A DNA stretch of 32,201 nucleotides from Gammaproteobacteria bacterium. GTDB taxonomy: Bacteria > Pseudomonadota > Gammaproteobacteria > Steroidobacterales > Steroidobacteraceae. Shown here piece after piece: positions 10,392-31,178 of this stretch. The position numbers and the translations under genes were made by a program. The notes under the pieces are model-generated. The model had not been told where the DNA came from and searched no databases. It worked only from the letters and a program-made list of their open reading frames with translations. Position 1 is the stretch's first letter; each line of letters begins with the position of its first letter. The DNA is taken from NCBI GenBank assembly GCA_030038875.1, contig JASHQW010000033.1, forward strand, positions 1 through 32,201. The letters run 5' to 3'.

Positions 10392-11453
10392 TCAGCCGGC
10401 TTCGCGGACCTCCTCGAACTTCGCCTTGTTGATCGCCTTCTTGTAGGCCTCTTTGCCGCTGATCTGCCGCGAGTCGAGCAGCTGTTGGATCGCCGAGTCC
10501 ATGGTGCGCATGCCGAACTGGCCGCCGGTCTGCATGGCGTTATCGAGCTGGTCGAGCTTGCCCTGGCGGATGAGGTTGGCGGCCGCCGGAGTGTTGACCA
10601 GGATCTCGAGCGCCGCGACGCGGCCCTGGCGGTCGGCGCGCTGCAGCAGCTGCTGCGAGACCACGCCACGCAGCGAGGTCGACAGCATGGTGCGCACGTG
10701 CGACTGCTTGTCGGAGGGGAACACATTCACCATGCGGTCGACGGTAGCCGCTGCGCCGTTGGTGTGCAGCGTGCCCATCACCAGAATACCCATCTCCGCG
10801 GCCGTGACCGCGATGCTCATGGTCTCGAGGTCGCGCAACTCGCCGACCAGCACCACGTCGGGATCCTCGCGCAGGGCCGAGTGGACCGCGGCCGCGAAGC
10901 TCGGGCTGTGAACGCCGATCTCGCGCTGGCTGATGAGGCAGCTCTTTCTCTCGTGCACGAACTCGATCGGGTCCTCAACGGTGAGAATATGGCCGTTCAC
11001 GCGGCGGTTGATGTCGTCGATCATCGCGGCGAGCGTGGTGGACTTGCCCGAGCCGGTCTTGCCGGTGACGAGGATCAGCCCGCTGTTGGCCCGGCACAGC
11101 TGACGCACCGCTTCCGGGAGCTTGAGCTCATCGAGCGTGAGGGCCTTGGAGGGGATCGCCCGCAATACTCCGCCCATGCCGTTCAGCTGCCGCATCACGT
11201 TGACGCGGAAGCGGCCCTTGCCCTCGAGCGTGTAGGCGAAGTCGGCGCCGTCCTTCTTCTCGAAGCGGTCGACGGCGGTCTTCGGCATGATCTCGTAGAG
11301 CGCCGTCTTGACGAAGTCGACGGGCAGCTTGTCCGGCCTCAGGGGCATGAGATCGCCGTAGACGCGGATGCGCGGCGGGTCGCCGGCGATGAAGTGCAGG
11401 TCCGAGCCGCGCTTCTCGAGGACCTCGTTCAGAAAGGAATCGATCTGCGCCAC
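10392..11453 (-). CDS. PilT-like retraction ATPase (353 aa)
   Basis: Walker A GKTGSGKSTTLAAMID, LTVEDPIEFVHE, LREDPDVVLVGELRDLET, GTLHTNGAAATVDRMVN. Confidence 0.92.
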   Translation of the reverse strand: MAQIDSFLNEVLEKRGSDLHFIAGDPPRIRVYGDLMPLRPDKLPVDFVKTALYEIMPKTAVDRFEKKDGADFAYTLEGKGRFRVNVMRQLNGMGGVLRAIPSKALTLDELKLPEAVRQLCRANSGLILVTGKTGSGKSTTLAAMIDDINRRVNGHILTVEDPIEFVHERKSCLISQREIGVHSPSFAAAVHSALREDPDVVLVGELRDLETMSIAVTAAEMGILVMGTLHTNGAAATVDRMVNVFPSDKQSHVRTMLSTSLRGVVSQQLLQRADRQGRVAALEILVNTPAAANLIRQGKLDQLDNAMQTGGQFGMRTMDSAIQQLLDSRQISGKEAYKKAINKAKFEEVREAG

Positions 11454-11463
11454 GATGACCCCG

Positions 11464-12588
11464 TCAGGACGCCTGAGGGGACGCCGCGGCGGCCGCCGGC
11501 GGGGCGCTGTCCATCTTCGGCAGCATGCTCGTGTCGGTGACGAACTTCTGGAAGTTGCGCTTCTCGGTGGCGTAGTTGTAGGCGTCGTCGGGATCGACGG
11601 TGCGCGCGTTGATCGCGGCCAGCAGCGCCTGGTCGAGCAGCTGCATGCCGAGGTCGCGGCCCATCTGCAGCTGACTGGGAATCTGATGCGTCTGCTCGCT
11701 CTGGATGAGCTTGGCGATCGCCTTGGTCATCATCAGGATCTCGCAGACGGCGCGGCGCCCATGCGCATCGGCGGTCTTCACCAGCACCTGGGTCACGACT
11801 GCGAGCAGGCTCTGCGCCAGGAAGCTCTTGGTCTGCTCGCGCTCCTCGACCGGCAGGGCATCGATGATGCGGTCGATGGTCTTGACGGCGCCGGTGGTGT
11901 GCAGAGTGCCGAGCACCAGGTGGCCGGTCTCGGCCGCGGTCATGGCCATCGAGATGGTCTCGGCGTCGCGCAACTCGCCCACCAGGATCACGTCCGGGTC
12001 CTCGCGCATGGCCGCGCGCACCCCTTCGGCGAAGCTCGGGATGTGCGTGCCGAGCTCGCGCTGAATCACCTGGCTCTGCTTGCTCGCGTGCACGAACTCG
12101 ATCGGATCCTCGAGGCTGATGATGTTGAGCTTACGCGTGGAGTTCAGGTGATCGATCATCGCCGCGAGCGTGGTCGACTTGCCGGTGCCGGTGGAGCCGG
12201 TCACCAGCACCATGCCCTGATGGAAGTCGCACAGCCTGGTGACCACTGCCGGAAGAGCCAGGCTCGCGAGCGTCGGCACGGTCGAGGGGATGGCGCGGAA
12301 GGTGGCGCCGATGCCGGTGTCCTTGCGATAGACGTTGACGCGGAAACGCCCGCCCTCGGCGGACACGTAGGAGAAGTCGAGGTCGTTGCCCCTGGCGAAA
12401 TGCTCGTTTTGCGAGTTGGTGAGGATCTCGCCGATGTAGCCTTCGAGCTCCCCAGGGCGCAGGTCGCGAAACTTGATCGGCAGCAGGTCGCCATGCATGC
12501 GCAGCATCGGCGGCACGCCGACCGCCAGGTGCACGTCCGAGCACCCCTGCTGCGTGCCGAGCTTCAGGAACGCATCTATACGCGCCAC
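11464..12588 (-). CDS. PilT-like retraction ATPase, tandem paralogue (374 aa)
   Basis: Walker A GSTGTGKSTTLAAMID, SLEDPIEFVHA, MREDPDVILVGELRDAET, GTLHTTGAVKTIDRIID. Confidence 0.92.
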   Translation of the reverse strand: MARIDAFLKLGTQQGCSDVHLAVGVPPMLRMHGDLLPIKFRDLRPGELEGYIGEILTNSQNEHFARGNDLDFSYVSAEGGRFRVNVYRKDTGIGATFRAIPSTVPTLASLALPAVVTRLCDFHQGMVLVTGSTGTGKSTTLAAMIDHLNSTRKLNIISLEDPIEFVHASKQSQVIQRELGTHIPSFAEGVRAAMREDPDVILVGELRDAETISMAMTAAETGHLVLGTLHTTGAVKTIDRIIDALPVEEREQTKSFLAQSLLAVVTQVLVKTADAHGRRAVCEILMMTKAIAKLIQSEQTHQIPSQLQMGRDLGMQLLDQALLAAINARTVDPDDAYNYATEKRNFQKFVTDTSMLPKMDSAPPAAAAASPQAS

Positions 12589-22896: not shown

Positions 22897-24843
22897 GTGA
22901 TGCGCAAGCGCGGACTGCTGTTGCTGCTGGCTCTGCTCGCCGGTGCCGCGTTCGGGGGCGCGACAGCCTCTTTGGGTGCGCAGCCCGCGGCACCGCCGAC
23001 GCCGCCACCTGCGCCGGTCTCTCAGCCGGCGCAGGAGCAACCAGGCGTTCAGCCGGCGCCGGAGCAGCCGGCGGCGACGCCTCCCGCGGCTGCCGCGCCT
23101 CAGCCGGCAGCAACCGAGGCGCCGGCGGCCGCCGAGACCCTGGCGCCCGCCCAGCCGGCCTCCGAGCCGAAGCTCGGGTTCTTCCATCGTCACGCGAAGG
23201 GGCAGGCCTGGGTGGCCGCGGCCAATCCGCTAGCGGTCCAGGCGGGGCTCGAGATTCTCGCCAAGGGCGGCAGTGCTATCGATGCCGCGGTCGCGGTGCA
23301 GACCATGCTCGGGCTGGTCGAGCCGCAGAGCTCCGGCATCGCCGGCGGCGCCTTTCTCATGTACTACGACGCGCGCAGCCGCGAGGTGAGCGCACTCGAC
23401 GGGCGCGAGAAGGCGCCGGCGGCCGCGCCCGCCAACATGTTCCTCGACGAGCACGGCAAGCCCCTGCCGTTCCTCGAGGCGGTGCGCAGCGGCCGCTCCA
23501 CCGGCGTGCCGGGCGTGATTGCGATGCTGTACGCGGCGCATGCGAAGTTCGGCGCGATGCGCTGGAAGGAAGACTTCGCGCCAGCGATCCGCGCCGCTAG
23601 CCAAGGCTTCCGGGTGCCGGCGCGGCTCGCAATGTTTCTCGGCGAGGGATCGCCGTTTCCGCCGACCAACGAGATCCGCATGCTGTTCTCGCGGCCGGAC
23701 GGCGAGCCGCTCGAGGCCGACGACGTGTTCAGGAATCCCGAGTACGCCAAGACACTCGAGGGCATCGCGCGCGAGGGCCCGCGCGCGCTCTATACGGGCC
23801 CGATCGCGCGCGCCATCATCGCCGGGACGCACGAGGAGCCGCTGCCCGGAACGATGACGCTCCAGGACCTCGCTTCCTATCGTCCCGAATGGGACCAGCC
23901 GCTGTGCCGACCCTTCCGCCACTACTCCGTGTGCGCGCCGCCGCCGCCCGCGGGCGGGGTCTCGCTGCTCGAGCTCCTTGGCATGCTTGAGAAGACCGAC
24001 ATCGCTGCGCGCGGCCCGAACGATCCCGAGGCCTGGTTCCTGTTCGCCCAGGCGAGCCGCCTCGCCTACGCCGACCGCGACCGCTACGTCGCCGATCCGC
24101 ATTTCGTCGCCGTGCCGGTCGAGCGGCTGCTCGATCCCGCGTACCTGAGGTTGCGCACCCAGCTGATCGGCGAGCACGCGGGCCCCGCGCCGCTGCCGGG
24201 TGAGATCGCGGTGCCGCGCGGCCGGGACGCCACCACGGAGTCGCAGGGGACGAGCCACTTCGTCGTGGTCGACGCGGACGGCAACGTCGTATCCATGACC
24301 ACCACCATCGAGTCGGTATTCGGCTCGGGGCGTACCGTGGGCGGCTTCGTGCTCAACAACCAGCTGACGGACTTCTCTTTCACTCCGAGCGACGCGGGGC
24401 AGCCGGTCGCCAACGCAGTGCACGGGGGTAAGCGGCCGCGCTCCTCGATGGCGCCGGTCATCGTGCTCGATCACGACGGCGCTTTCGTCGCGGCGCTCGG
24501 CTCGCCGGGTGGCTCCGCCATTACCGAATACAACGCCAAGGCACTCGTCGGGCTCCTCGCCTGGAAGCTCACTCTCAAGCAGGCGATCGAGCTGCCGAAT
24601 CTGATCGCCCGCGGCGACAGCTTCAACGGCGAGCTCGCCAAGTTCACGCCCGAAGTGCTCGCGGGGCTGCGGGAGCGCGGCATGGTGCTGAAACTGGGCC
24701 GCGCCGAGAACTCGGGCCTGCACGGCGTCGTGCGCCTTCCCGACGGCACCTACGAGGGAGCGGCCGATTCGCGCCGCGAGGGCACGGCGAGCATGTTGGC
24801 GCCGCGGCCGGCGAAAGCGAAGCACGCGGCCGCGGGCAAGTAA
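22897..24843 (+). CDS. ggt: Gamma-glutamyltransferase with a Pro/Ala-rich N-terminal linker
   Basis: AANPLAVQAGLEILAKGGSAIDAAVAVQTMLGLVEPQSSGIAGGAF, processing site ESQG/TSHFVVVDADGNVVSMTTTIESVFGSG, signal peptide. Confidence 0.95.
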   Translation: MMRKRGLLLLLALLAGAAFGGATASLGAQPAAPPTPPPAPVSQPAQEQPGVQPAPEQPAATPPAAAAPQPAATEAPAAAETLAPAQPASEPKLGFFHRHAKGQAWVAAANPLAVQAGLEILAKGGSAIDAAVAVQTMLGLVEPQSSGIAGGAFLMYYDARSREVSALDGREKAPAAAPANMFLDEHGKPLPFLEAVRSGRSTGVPGVIAMLYAAHAKFGAMRWKEDFAPAIRAASQGFRVPARLAMFLGEGSPFPPTNEIRMLFSRPDGEPLEADDVFRNPEYAKTLEGIAREGPRALYTGPIARAIIAGTHEEPLPGTMTLQDLASYRPEWDQPLCRPFRHYSVCAPPPPAGGVSLLELLGMLEKTDIAARGPNDPEAWFLFAQASRLAYADRDRYVADPHFVAVPVERLLDPAYLRLRTQLIGEHAGPAPLPGEIAVPRGRDATTESQGTSHFVVVDADGNVVSMTTTIESVFGSGRTVGGFVLNNQLTDFSFTPSDAGQPVANAVHGGKRPRSSMAPVIVLDHDGAFVAALGSPGGSAITEYNAKALVGLLAWKLTLKQAIELPNLIARGDSFNGELAKFTPEVLAGLRERGMVLKLGRAENSGLHGVVRLPDGTYEGAADSRREGTASMLAPRPAKAKHAAAGK

Positions 24844-24851
24844 GCGCCACT

Positions 24852-24943
24852 GCGCAGCCGGCAAAAACGACGCTTTTTGCCGGCGGTCGACGGAGTAATG
24901 TCCGGCAAAAGCGCCGCAGGCGACTTTTGCCCAATCTACTAAC
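24852..24943 (-). repeat. Structured dispersed intergenic repeat, copy A (two hairpins)
   Basis: Stem GCCGGCAAAAA (24857-24867) / TTTTTGCCGGC (24874-24884); stem GGCAAAAG (24904-24911) / CTTTTGCC (24924-24931); linker in reverse complement GGACATTACTCCGTCGACCGC; aligns end to end with 31040-31132. Confidence 0.85.
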
Positions 24944-25592
24944 GTGTGGTGGCGGTGGCCGGGAAGCCCAGGTCGTCCGCGCCGTTCCAGCGCCTCCATG
25001 CCGTGAGCACGCGGTCCGGGTAGTCGCGCTTTCCCGGGCTGCCGTTGTAGCGCGCCAGCGCCTTGCGTACGTCGTCGTGCTCGTAGCCGAGGTAGTAGCG
25101 CAGGATCGCGCAGCCCATGTGCACGTTCGACGCGACGTGCACCAGCTCGTAACGCCGCATCCCGAGCCGCTCGGGCCAGAAGGGCATCACCTGCATGAGG
25201 CCCACCGCTCCGGCCGCGGAGACGGCCCAGCGATCGAAGCGGCTCTCGACGGCGATCAGCGCCATGACGAGGCCCGGCGGCAGCCGCGCCTCACCGGGGC
25301 GGTGCGTCTCGCAATAGACCTGCTTCAGGATCTCGAGCCGCTCGCTGTGATCCTTCACGATGGGGCGCAGCCGCGGCTCCATGAGCGTGTACCAGACGGC
25401 CGAATCGTACTGATCGTCGAAGCACTGCGCCTGGGCGATGGCGCGCGCGACCACGTCGCGCAGCGCCGGATCGTGCTGCTGATCGGCGTGCGCGCATTCG
25501 CTGCCGAGCGCGAGTGCCCCCGTGAGCATCAGAGCGGACAGTGCGCCCGCCGCGCGCCGGCAGCGCCCGAGGGCCGTACCCGCCAGCCGCAC
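24939..25592 (-). CDS. Lytic transglycosylase (SLT domain), likely GTG start at 25592
   Basis: VMALIAVESRFDRWAVSAAGAVGLMQVMPFWPERLG, NVHMGCAILRYYLGYEHDDVRKALARYNGS. Confidence 0.92.
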   Translation of the reverse strand: MRLAGTALGRCRRAAGALSALMLTGALALGSECAHADQQHDPALRDVVARAIAQAQCFDDQYDSAVWYTLMEPRLRPIVKDHSERLEILKQVYCETHRPGEARLPPGLVMALIAVESRFDRWAVSAAGAVGLMQVMPFWPERLGMRRYELVHVASNVHMGCAILRYYLGYEHDDVRKALARYNGSPGKRDYPDRVLTAWRRWNGADDLGFPATATTR

Positions 25593-29461: not shown

Positions 29462-31048
29462 ATGGCTGATCTCGCTGCCGAAATCCGTCGGCGACGGACC
29501 TTCGCGATCATTTCGCATCCCGACGCGGGCAAGACCACTCTCACCGAGAAGCTGCTGCTGTTCGGCGGCGCGATCCAGATGGCGGGCACGGTCAAGGGCC
29601 GCAAGGCCGCCCGCCACGCCACTTCCGACTGGATGCGGCTCGAACAGCAGCGCGGCATCTCGGTGACCTCCTCGGTGATGCAGTTCCCGTATCGCGACTG
29701 CATCGTGAACCTGCTCGACACCCCGGGGCACGAGGATTTCTCCGAGGACACCTACCGCACCCTCACCGCGGTGGACTCTGCGCTCATGGTCATCGACTGC
29801 GCCAAGGGGGTCGAGGAGCGCACCATCAAGCTGATGGAGGTCTGCCGGCTGCGCGACACGCCGATCATGACCTTCATCAACAAGCTCGACCGCGACGGGC
29901 GCAGCCCCATCGAGCTGCTGGATGAGATCGAGAGCGTGCTGCGCATCGGCACGGCGCCGGTGACCTGGCCGATCGGCATGGGGCGCGAGCTGCGCGGCAT
30001 CTATCATCTCGCCGAGGACCGCATCTACGCCTACGAGGCTGGGGAGCGTGGACGGGTGGGGGAGAACCGCATCATCGACGGTCTCGCGGGCGAGGCCGCG
30101 CGCGAGTTTCTCGGCGAGCTCGCCGCGCCCTTCACCGAGGAGATTGAGCTGGTGAAGGGCGCCACCGAGGCCTTCGACCGCGAGGCCTATCGCGCCGGAC
30201 AGCAGACCCCGGTGTTCTTCGGCTCCGCCATCAACAACTTCGGTGTCGAGGAGCTGCTCGCCGCGTTCGTGACGCATGCCCCGGGGCCGCTGCCGCGCGC
30301 GGCGCGCGAGCGCATCGTGCAGCCGGACGAGCCCGCGCTCGCCGGCTTCGTCTTCAAGATCCAGGCCAACATGGATCCCGCCCATCGCGACCGCATCGCG
30401 TTTCTGCGGCTGTGCGCCGGCAAGTACACGCGCGGCATGCGCCTCTATCAGGTGCGCCTCGGCAAGGAGGTGCGGGTCGCCGACGCGCTCACCTTCATGG
30501 CGGCCGAGCGCGCCCAGGCCGAGGAGGCCTACGCCGGGGACATCATCGGGCTGCACAACTACGGCACCATCAACATCGGTGACAGCTTCAGCCAGGGCGA
30601 GCGGCTCGCTTTCACCGGGGTGCCAAACTTCGCGCCGGAGATCTTCCGCCGTGCGGTGCTCAAGGATCCGCTGCGCGCCAAGGCGCTGCAGAAGGGTCTC
30701 TCGCAGCTGTGCGAGGAGGGGGCGACGCAGCTCTTCCGGCCGCTGCGCAGCAACGAGCTGATCCTCGGCGCGGTCGGGCAGCTGCAGTTCGAGGTGGTGG
30801 CCTTTCGCCTCGCGGACGAGTACGGGGTGCAGTGCGTGTTCGAGCCGGTCACGGTGTACACCGCGCGCTGGGTCGACAGCGCCGATGGAGAGCGCCTCGA
30901 GGAGTTCCGCAGCCGCGCCCACGAGCACCTGGCGCTCGATCACGCCGGCGCGCTCGTGTACCTCGCGCCGTCGCGCGTCAACCTCGAGCTGACGATCGAG
31001 CGCTGGCCGGGGATCGCCTTCCACGAGACCCGCGAGCATGTTAGTTAA
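29462..31048 (+). CDS. prfC: Peptide chain release factor 3
   Basis: [70 protein letters not shown]; ends TREH-VS-stop. Confidence 0.97.
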
Positions 31049-31132
31049 TTGGGCAAAATCGGCATCCTGCCGATTTTGCCGGACATTACTTCGTGGACCG
31101 CGGGCAAAAGGCGCGACTTTTGCCCGCTGCGC
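31040..31132 (+). repeat. Structured dispersed intergenic repeat, copy B (two hairpins)
   Basis: Perfect 13-bp stem GGCAAAATCGGCA (31052-31064) / TGCCGATTTTGCC (31068-31080); GGACATTACTTCGTGG (31081-31096); perfect 11-bp stem GCGGGCAAAAG (31100-31110) / CTTTTGCCCGC (31117-31127). Confidence 0.88.
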
Positions 31133-31136
31133 CTCA

Positions 31137-31178
31137 CGCCGGCCCTCGCCGGCGATTTCGGCGGACATTACTTCGTGG
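31137..31178 (+). repeat. Third, partial unit of the copy-B repeat
   Basis: CGCCGG/CCGGCG hairpin (31137-31142/31149-31154), then CGATTTCGGCGGACATTACTTCGTGG (31153-31178), 24/26 identical to 31071-31096. Confidence 0.8.

Follow-up and report, generated by a model that had tools for sequence, protein, structure and literature searches.

Two segments of the window (the whole 32,201-nt stretch of DNA that was analysed), segment A on the minus strand and segment B on the plus strand, are copies of one ~90-nt double-hairpin element (Table 1). The element is probably a mobile, REP-like palindromic repeat that is non-autonomous and of the single-strand-hairpin type, and it represents a new two-hairpin family restricted to one genus. 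What is new here is its siting: many copies lie in sense orientation, precisely on the stop codon of the gene upstream. A preliminary description, made from the letters of the window, had given the minus-strand sequence of segment A and its full-length alignment to segment B, and both were present as described. It recognized two copies; a third, half unit, the exact stop-codon placement and the presence or absence of the element at orthologous sites had all been missed.

Table 1 Coordinates of the element copies, their parts and the adjacent genes in the window
Feature	Position	Strand	Basis or remark
Copy A of the element	24852..24943	-	Model match 24855-24940, 98.9 bits, E 3.3e-25
TAG stop of the SLT-domain transglycosylase gene, inside copy A leader	24939..24941	-	
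Copy A hairpin 1	24904..24931	-	Folding
Copy A linker GGACATTACTCCGT	24890..24903	-	Exact pattern
Copy A hairpin 2	24857..24884	-	Folding; followed by the tail, 24852-24856
Copy B of the element	31040..31132	+	Model match 31043-31129, 101.9 bits, E 4.7e-26
TAA stop of prfC, made by copy B leader	31046..31048	+	
Copy B hairpin 1	31052..31080	+	Folding
Copy B linker GGACATTACTTCGT	31081..31094	+	Exact pattern
Copy B hairpin 2	31100..31127	+	Folding
Head-to-tail half unit: altered hairpin-1 region and linker, without hairpin 2	31133..31176	+	
Gene upstream of copy A: SLT transglycosylase domain protein	24939..25592	-	PF01464, 2.7e-17
Convergent neighbour of copy A: gamma-glutamyltranspeptidase	22897..24843	+	PF01019
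Gene upstream of copy B: peptide chain release factor 3 (prfC)	29462..31048	+	NF001964

The two copies form an inverted repeat (I1) of 62 nt with 84% complementarity. Using DNA parameters, each copy folds as two hairpins on either strand and was more stable than all 200 shuffled sequences (z = -3.6 and -5.8), which bears out the two strong hairpins claimed for each. The sequence GGACATTACTYCGT occurs exactly at three window sites, 24890 (-), 31081 (+) and 31163 (+), the last being part of the half unit directly downstream of copy B. Elsewhere in the window, a 253-nt direct repeat (10732-10984 and 11867-12119, 75% identical) lies within two adjacent minus-strand ATPase genes (10392-11453 and 11464-12588; PilT/PilU-like by eye) and is an ordinary gene duplication.

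The preliminary description had proposed a covariance-model search of the genome and its relatives, and such a search was made. The host genome is a 3.43 Mb MAG of 423 contigs with a completeness of 87%. Seven copies served to build a covariance model (R1), which was applied at E <= 0.001; copies were studied via extracted loci. R1 gave 66 matches in the host genome; a longer own-genome match list contains antisense self-matches of the palindromes. The exact pattern GGACATTACTNCGT was found at 9 places in the whole host genome, against 0 for the reversed pattern. Within the genus, 23 of 37 genomes harboured R1 matches, up to 67 each, and 14 had none. The richest congeners were G027 (67 copies), G032 (62), G002 (41) and G031 (40). 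The compared genomes are MAGs, one per species, and most of the congeners are incomplete. Sampling other families of the order (23 genomes) yielded no R1 match. An exact pattern scan over 84,980 bacterial and archaeal species returned 18 contigs, all from uncultured proteobacterial MAGs (by title, 17 Gammaproteobacteria and one Proteobacteria, several of them from bog or shallow soil). A phage or plasmid origin was rejected, as no element matches were present among viral contigs, phages and plasmids. Taking these searches together, the family is in essence limited to a single genus, where its distribution is patchy. With Rfam release 15, nothing in the window matched at the gathering score, and the element itself had no match even when E was allowed to reach 1.

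The unit consists of two variable bases, TYNATTGG, hairpin 1, the GGACATYACTYCG linker, hairpin 2 and GCTGCG. Its left boundary is uncertain by 2-3 bases, and the right junction is unclean at some sites (site A, L010). The stems are 11-12 bp long, stem 1 being preceded by TYNATTG and stem 2 by the linker end nnCC. The linker had been called nearly invariant, a description that does not extend to the family, in which it drifts genus-wide to GGACATYAnCTYCG. Among 37 own-genome copies, standard pairs made up 96.7% of the paired cells, and 82 stem cells were altered on both sides versus 5 on one side, a result matched by none of 500 shuffles. The covariation was destroyed on sliding the partner by 1-3 columns. 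The 37-copy alignment was fitted to the model and leans towards it; a seven-copy MAFFT alignment agrees. Both stems are kept through compensatory Watson-Crick changes. As for tandems, a further same-strand unit followed within 100 nt downstream in 13 of 122 copies, against a control count of 3 upstream. The arrays seen were head-to-tail, and the alternating orientation of mosaic arrays was not observed.

A long form of hairpin 2 was also observed, with a conserved ~60-nt core (GGGGCTCGATNCGC...CAGCAGCCRAGCACTYCGTRGCAAGGTCGGCGCA) in the apical loop between the usual stem arms. It occurs at L001 (C91), L030 and L140 in the own genome and at L251 and L264 in the congener G075, standing without hairpin 1 at L264. 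The core had no match in Rfam, plasmids or viral sequences. The long form is possibly an ancestral longer unit or a nested element.

Concerning placement, genes were called with a home-made simple codon-score finder trained on the extracted DNA, which recovered the expected window genes, and 120 independent copies with both neighbours classified were examined. In 71 of these, the stop codon of the same-strand upstream gene lay inside the element leader, whereas random placement and orientation in the same gaps gave 26.7 +/- 3.2 such cases, with a maximum of 38 in 2000 trials. The stop codon mostly preceded the first GG of the stem by exactly 6 nt, with 2 or 7 nt the next most common spacings, and the gap from the element to the downstream gene was broadly distributed. 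Convergent gaps held 57 of the 120 copies, compared with 20 of 119 neighbouring gene pairs in background DNA. Stop usage was also skewed: TAG accounted for 42 of 75 stops abutting the element versus 78 of 299 background genes, and TGA for 19 versus 189 (p = 2e-8).

Several copies occupy other sites. The leader abuts the mature 5' end of a tRNA, antisense to it, and does so at the same tRNAs across several species (tRNA-Lys at L012, L041, L045 and L062; tRNA-Val at L024, L058 and L059; tRNA-Trp at L017, L042, L043 and L064). At L028, the element abuts the start codon of a gene identified by eye as murA-like. The element or a related hairpin was found in five species at the 3' end of one gene whose protein ends ...GVKMGFFxN (L038, L044, L051, L108 and L272), a possible recurrent insertion hotspot.

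Orthologous sites were then compared. At site B, the prfC orthologues of eight congeners end EHAAT* or similar and the element is absent; in the own genome the protein ends EHVS*, the TAA being contributed by the leader, and G021 has an element copy of its own, with TAG. Site A is empty in many congeners, and in the closest relative, G075, it holds the element reversed, abutting the other gene of the convergent pair; opposite orientation in G075 was also seen at L019. When 13 further own-genome sites were compared with five congeners, empty partners were found at nearly all. The native stop was kept at 6 of the 13, with the element within a few nt of it in 5 of those 6. At six others of the 13, as at A and B, the leader supplies the stop and the last codons differ. 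The stop is supplied by the element and not by the gene in about half of the compared sites, which has a bearing on the annotation of C-termini. In G027, copies 98.8-100% identical stand at unrelated loci, and three of them, at unrelated genes, are identical save for the host stop (TAG/TAA). At least six G027 copies have empty orthologous sites. For L096 (TAG), L169 (TAA), L104 (TAG), L092 (TAG), L088 (TGA) and L168 (TGA), relatives of G027 show their native stop at the corresponding position. No target duplication was seen at the young copies. The empty orthologous sites and the near-identical G027 copies indicate that the element is mobile, has inserted repeatedly and in recent times, and lands at or a few codons from stops.

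Two gene ends carry other elements in relatives. At L254 in G021, orthologous to the own site L027, a different hairpin element (GGCGAGCAAAAACCGCGCTTTTTGCTCGCC) sits at the same gene end at which the own genome and G075 carry the double-hairpin element. At L184 in G002, orthologous to site A, an unrelated inverted repeat (GACAAGAAGATGTTCA...TGAACATCTTCTTGTC) lies in the same convergent gap.

The sense orientation and the exact distance from the stop would also be consistent with a functional 3'-UTR element (a terminator, mRNA-stability or translation-termination signal) kept by selection, with placement reflecting function and not target choice. The same can be said of the half of the copies lying between convergent genes, of the compensation that keeps both stems, and of the stalling of ribosomes by E. 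coli REPs within 15 nt of a stop, as relayed by a citation within PMC12306157. However, the same gene ends are empty in close relatives, 14 of 37 congeners wholly lack the element, and copies lie beside tRNA 5' ends and at a start codon. In addition, stem changes are nearly all from one Watson-Crick pair to another with few G-U steps, a pattern that would fit the upkeep of a DNA palindrome, as in REPs, better than selection at the RNA level. An intrinsic terminator was rejected, as no match was present at A or B. We therefore regard a selected 3'-UTR signal as decidedly improbable. An integron attC site was considered because attC and the element both lie 3' of genes; it was rejected because the sequence of the element lacks paired GTTRRRY/RYYYAAC ends.

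We next consider the enzyme that might mobilize the repeat. The preliminary description had suggested looking for a RAYT/Y1 transposase in the genome, and the Y1 transposase (PF01797) turned out to be absent. It was also absent from 11 of the 12 genomes with 10 or more copies, including G002 (98% complete, 41 copies), G027 (67 copies) and G031 (97% complete, 40 copies); the twelfth has a broken one. Y1 presence was, if anything, negatively associated with the element (3/23 versus 7/14, p = 0.02). The best Y1 match of the genus (L068) is of the IS200 type and not a RAYT, and neither an element copy nor flanking inverted copies were found near the Y1 genes fetched from the genus. A RAYT/Y1 mobilizer was thus rejected as absent or unassociated. 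No parent IS sharing the element ends was found in this set, in which nearly all rich genomes lack Y1 and most congeners are incomplete MAGs. Two candidate structures were likewise rejected: the 1.7-kb insert at site B in G075, examined as an autonomous form, is an ordinary gene without element ends, and an inverted pair in G002 (L091), examined as a REP-RAYT-REP arrangement, encloses an ordinary host gene (CBS-domain-like by eye).

The element-rich genomes without RAYT raise the possibility of a fossil REP family that no longer moves, its RAYT having disappeared in the ancestor shared by the genus. RAYT loss with persisting REPs has been described (PMC3686654), and the median identity between copies is only 71-73%. 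On the other hand, the G027 copies at unrelated sites are nearly or fully identical, and several insertions are younger than the split from G075. We consider a fossil family unlikely.

Enzymes of the IS110/IS1111 and IS91 groups also give no target duplication, and mobilization in trans by one of them would account for that habit here. IS110 was rejected, being absent from the own genome and not associated with the element (8/15 versus 6/10), as was IS91, since a Y2 transposase was present in just 1 of 25 genus genomes tested, an element-free one. Mobilization by either group is extremely unlikely. A MITE of a DDE-type insertion sequence would likewise be short, non-autonomous and dispersed, with empty sites. 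However, the head TYNATTGG and the tail CTGCGC are non-complementary and not inverted repeats, young copies lack a target duplication, and the 5' motif is strong, making a MITE very improbable. The original suggestion of a REP/BIME- or MITE-like dispersed intergenic repeat therefore stands as to the hairpin-linker-hairpin form and the many copies, and is not supported as to a classical MITE with terminal inverted repeats.

We return to the mobile REP-like repeat and its target. In 41 copies without a stop codon, the preceding bases were C (59%), C (49%) or T (34%), and T (73%); the next two were nearly free, and TYNATTGG followed. CCYT thus lies directly 5' of the unit, stop codon or not. In gene-end copies the T of the motif opens the stop codon, whose other two letters are the free bases. 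This is most simply explained if the element inserts 3' of a CCYT/CT motif and selection then acts against insertions that damage proteins. The CT dinucleotides at which E. coli TnpA-REP cleaves lie 5' or 3' of the REP (PMC8266576), and the element junction fits this class of reaction. The unit would move folded, as single-stranded DNA, with cutting and joining on the 3' side of a C-T dinucleotide, in the manner of IS200/IS605 and TnpA-REP (RAYT). As the T is very often the first stop base and the next two bases complete a stop, the protein would stay intact or change only in its last codons, so that such insertions would survive. The mobilizing enzyme may since have been lost, or may act in trans. 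With two hairpins just after the stop in the mRNA, the element probably has a REP-like role (mRNA 3'-end barrier, slowed termination), its effects on mRNA or translation being suggested by analogy with E. coli REPs (PMC12306157). A bolder proposal is a stop-codon-homing element, in which an enzyme other than Y1, Y2 or IS110 would select C-T-purine-purine, stops would be the actual target, and insertion would restore the stop and deliver the double hairpin; we find this decidedly unlikely.

Among known systems, the element resembles the GTAG REPs, BIMEs and REPINs that come with a RAYT: small, high-copy extragenic palindromes with compensatory stem changes (PMC2817692, PMC3733652, PMC8266576), lying near ORF 3' ends in convergent and unidirectional gaps, with a repeat-supplied stop and CT at the junction. 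GTAG REPs frequently supply the ORFs beside them with a TAG stop and are found no more than 20 bp from ORF 3' ends, so that the stop-supplying habit has already been described (PMC3733652). Our element is likewise high-copy and extragenic, beside ORF 3' ends in convergent or unidirectional gaps. It differs from a GTAG REP in joining two unlike hairpins, always in one order, by a conserved linker, in its head-to-tail tandems and in lacking a RAYT, and a GTAG (or GTGG) tag was not found immediately before its stems. With the CGTC-tagged REPs it shares the lack of a dedicated transposase and the adjoining of ORF 3' ends; in these, stems of 8-9 bp open with AT pairs, the tails are CCA and the dimers are head-to-head (PMC3733652). 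By contrast, the stems here are 11-12 bp, the linker's CGTC is not conserved genus-wide and does not adjoin a stem, and none of the three marks of a CGTC REP (a CGTC tag next to the stem, an 8-9 bp stem opening with AT, a CCA tail) was found. Since the tags and the RAYT were looked for and not found, we do not file the element as a REP of either tagged superfamily.

Palindrome-associated transposable elements (PATEs), derived from IS200/IS605, carry subterminal hairpins at either end and a fixed 5' motif, and lack inverted repeats and target duplications. Our element has the subterminal hairpins and a constant 5' target motif (CCYT) and lacks terminal inverted repeats and target duplications, the latter two being what defines a DDE-type MITE. 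It would differ from a PATE in that, among these genomes, with most congeners incomplete MAGs, no parent IS with matching ends was found and nearly all rich genomes lack the Y1 gene. The family is thus REP-like, with a two-hairpin unit and no recognizable transposase, in a genus with many sequenced species, both copy-rich and copy-free. As occupied and empty sites can be compared base by base, the mover of the CGTC REPs, and target choice versus stop-codon selection in REPs, become directly testable.
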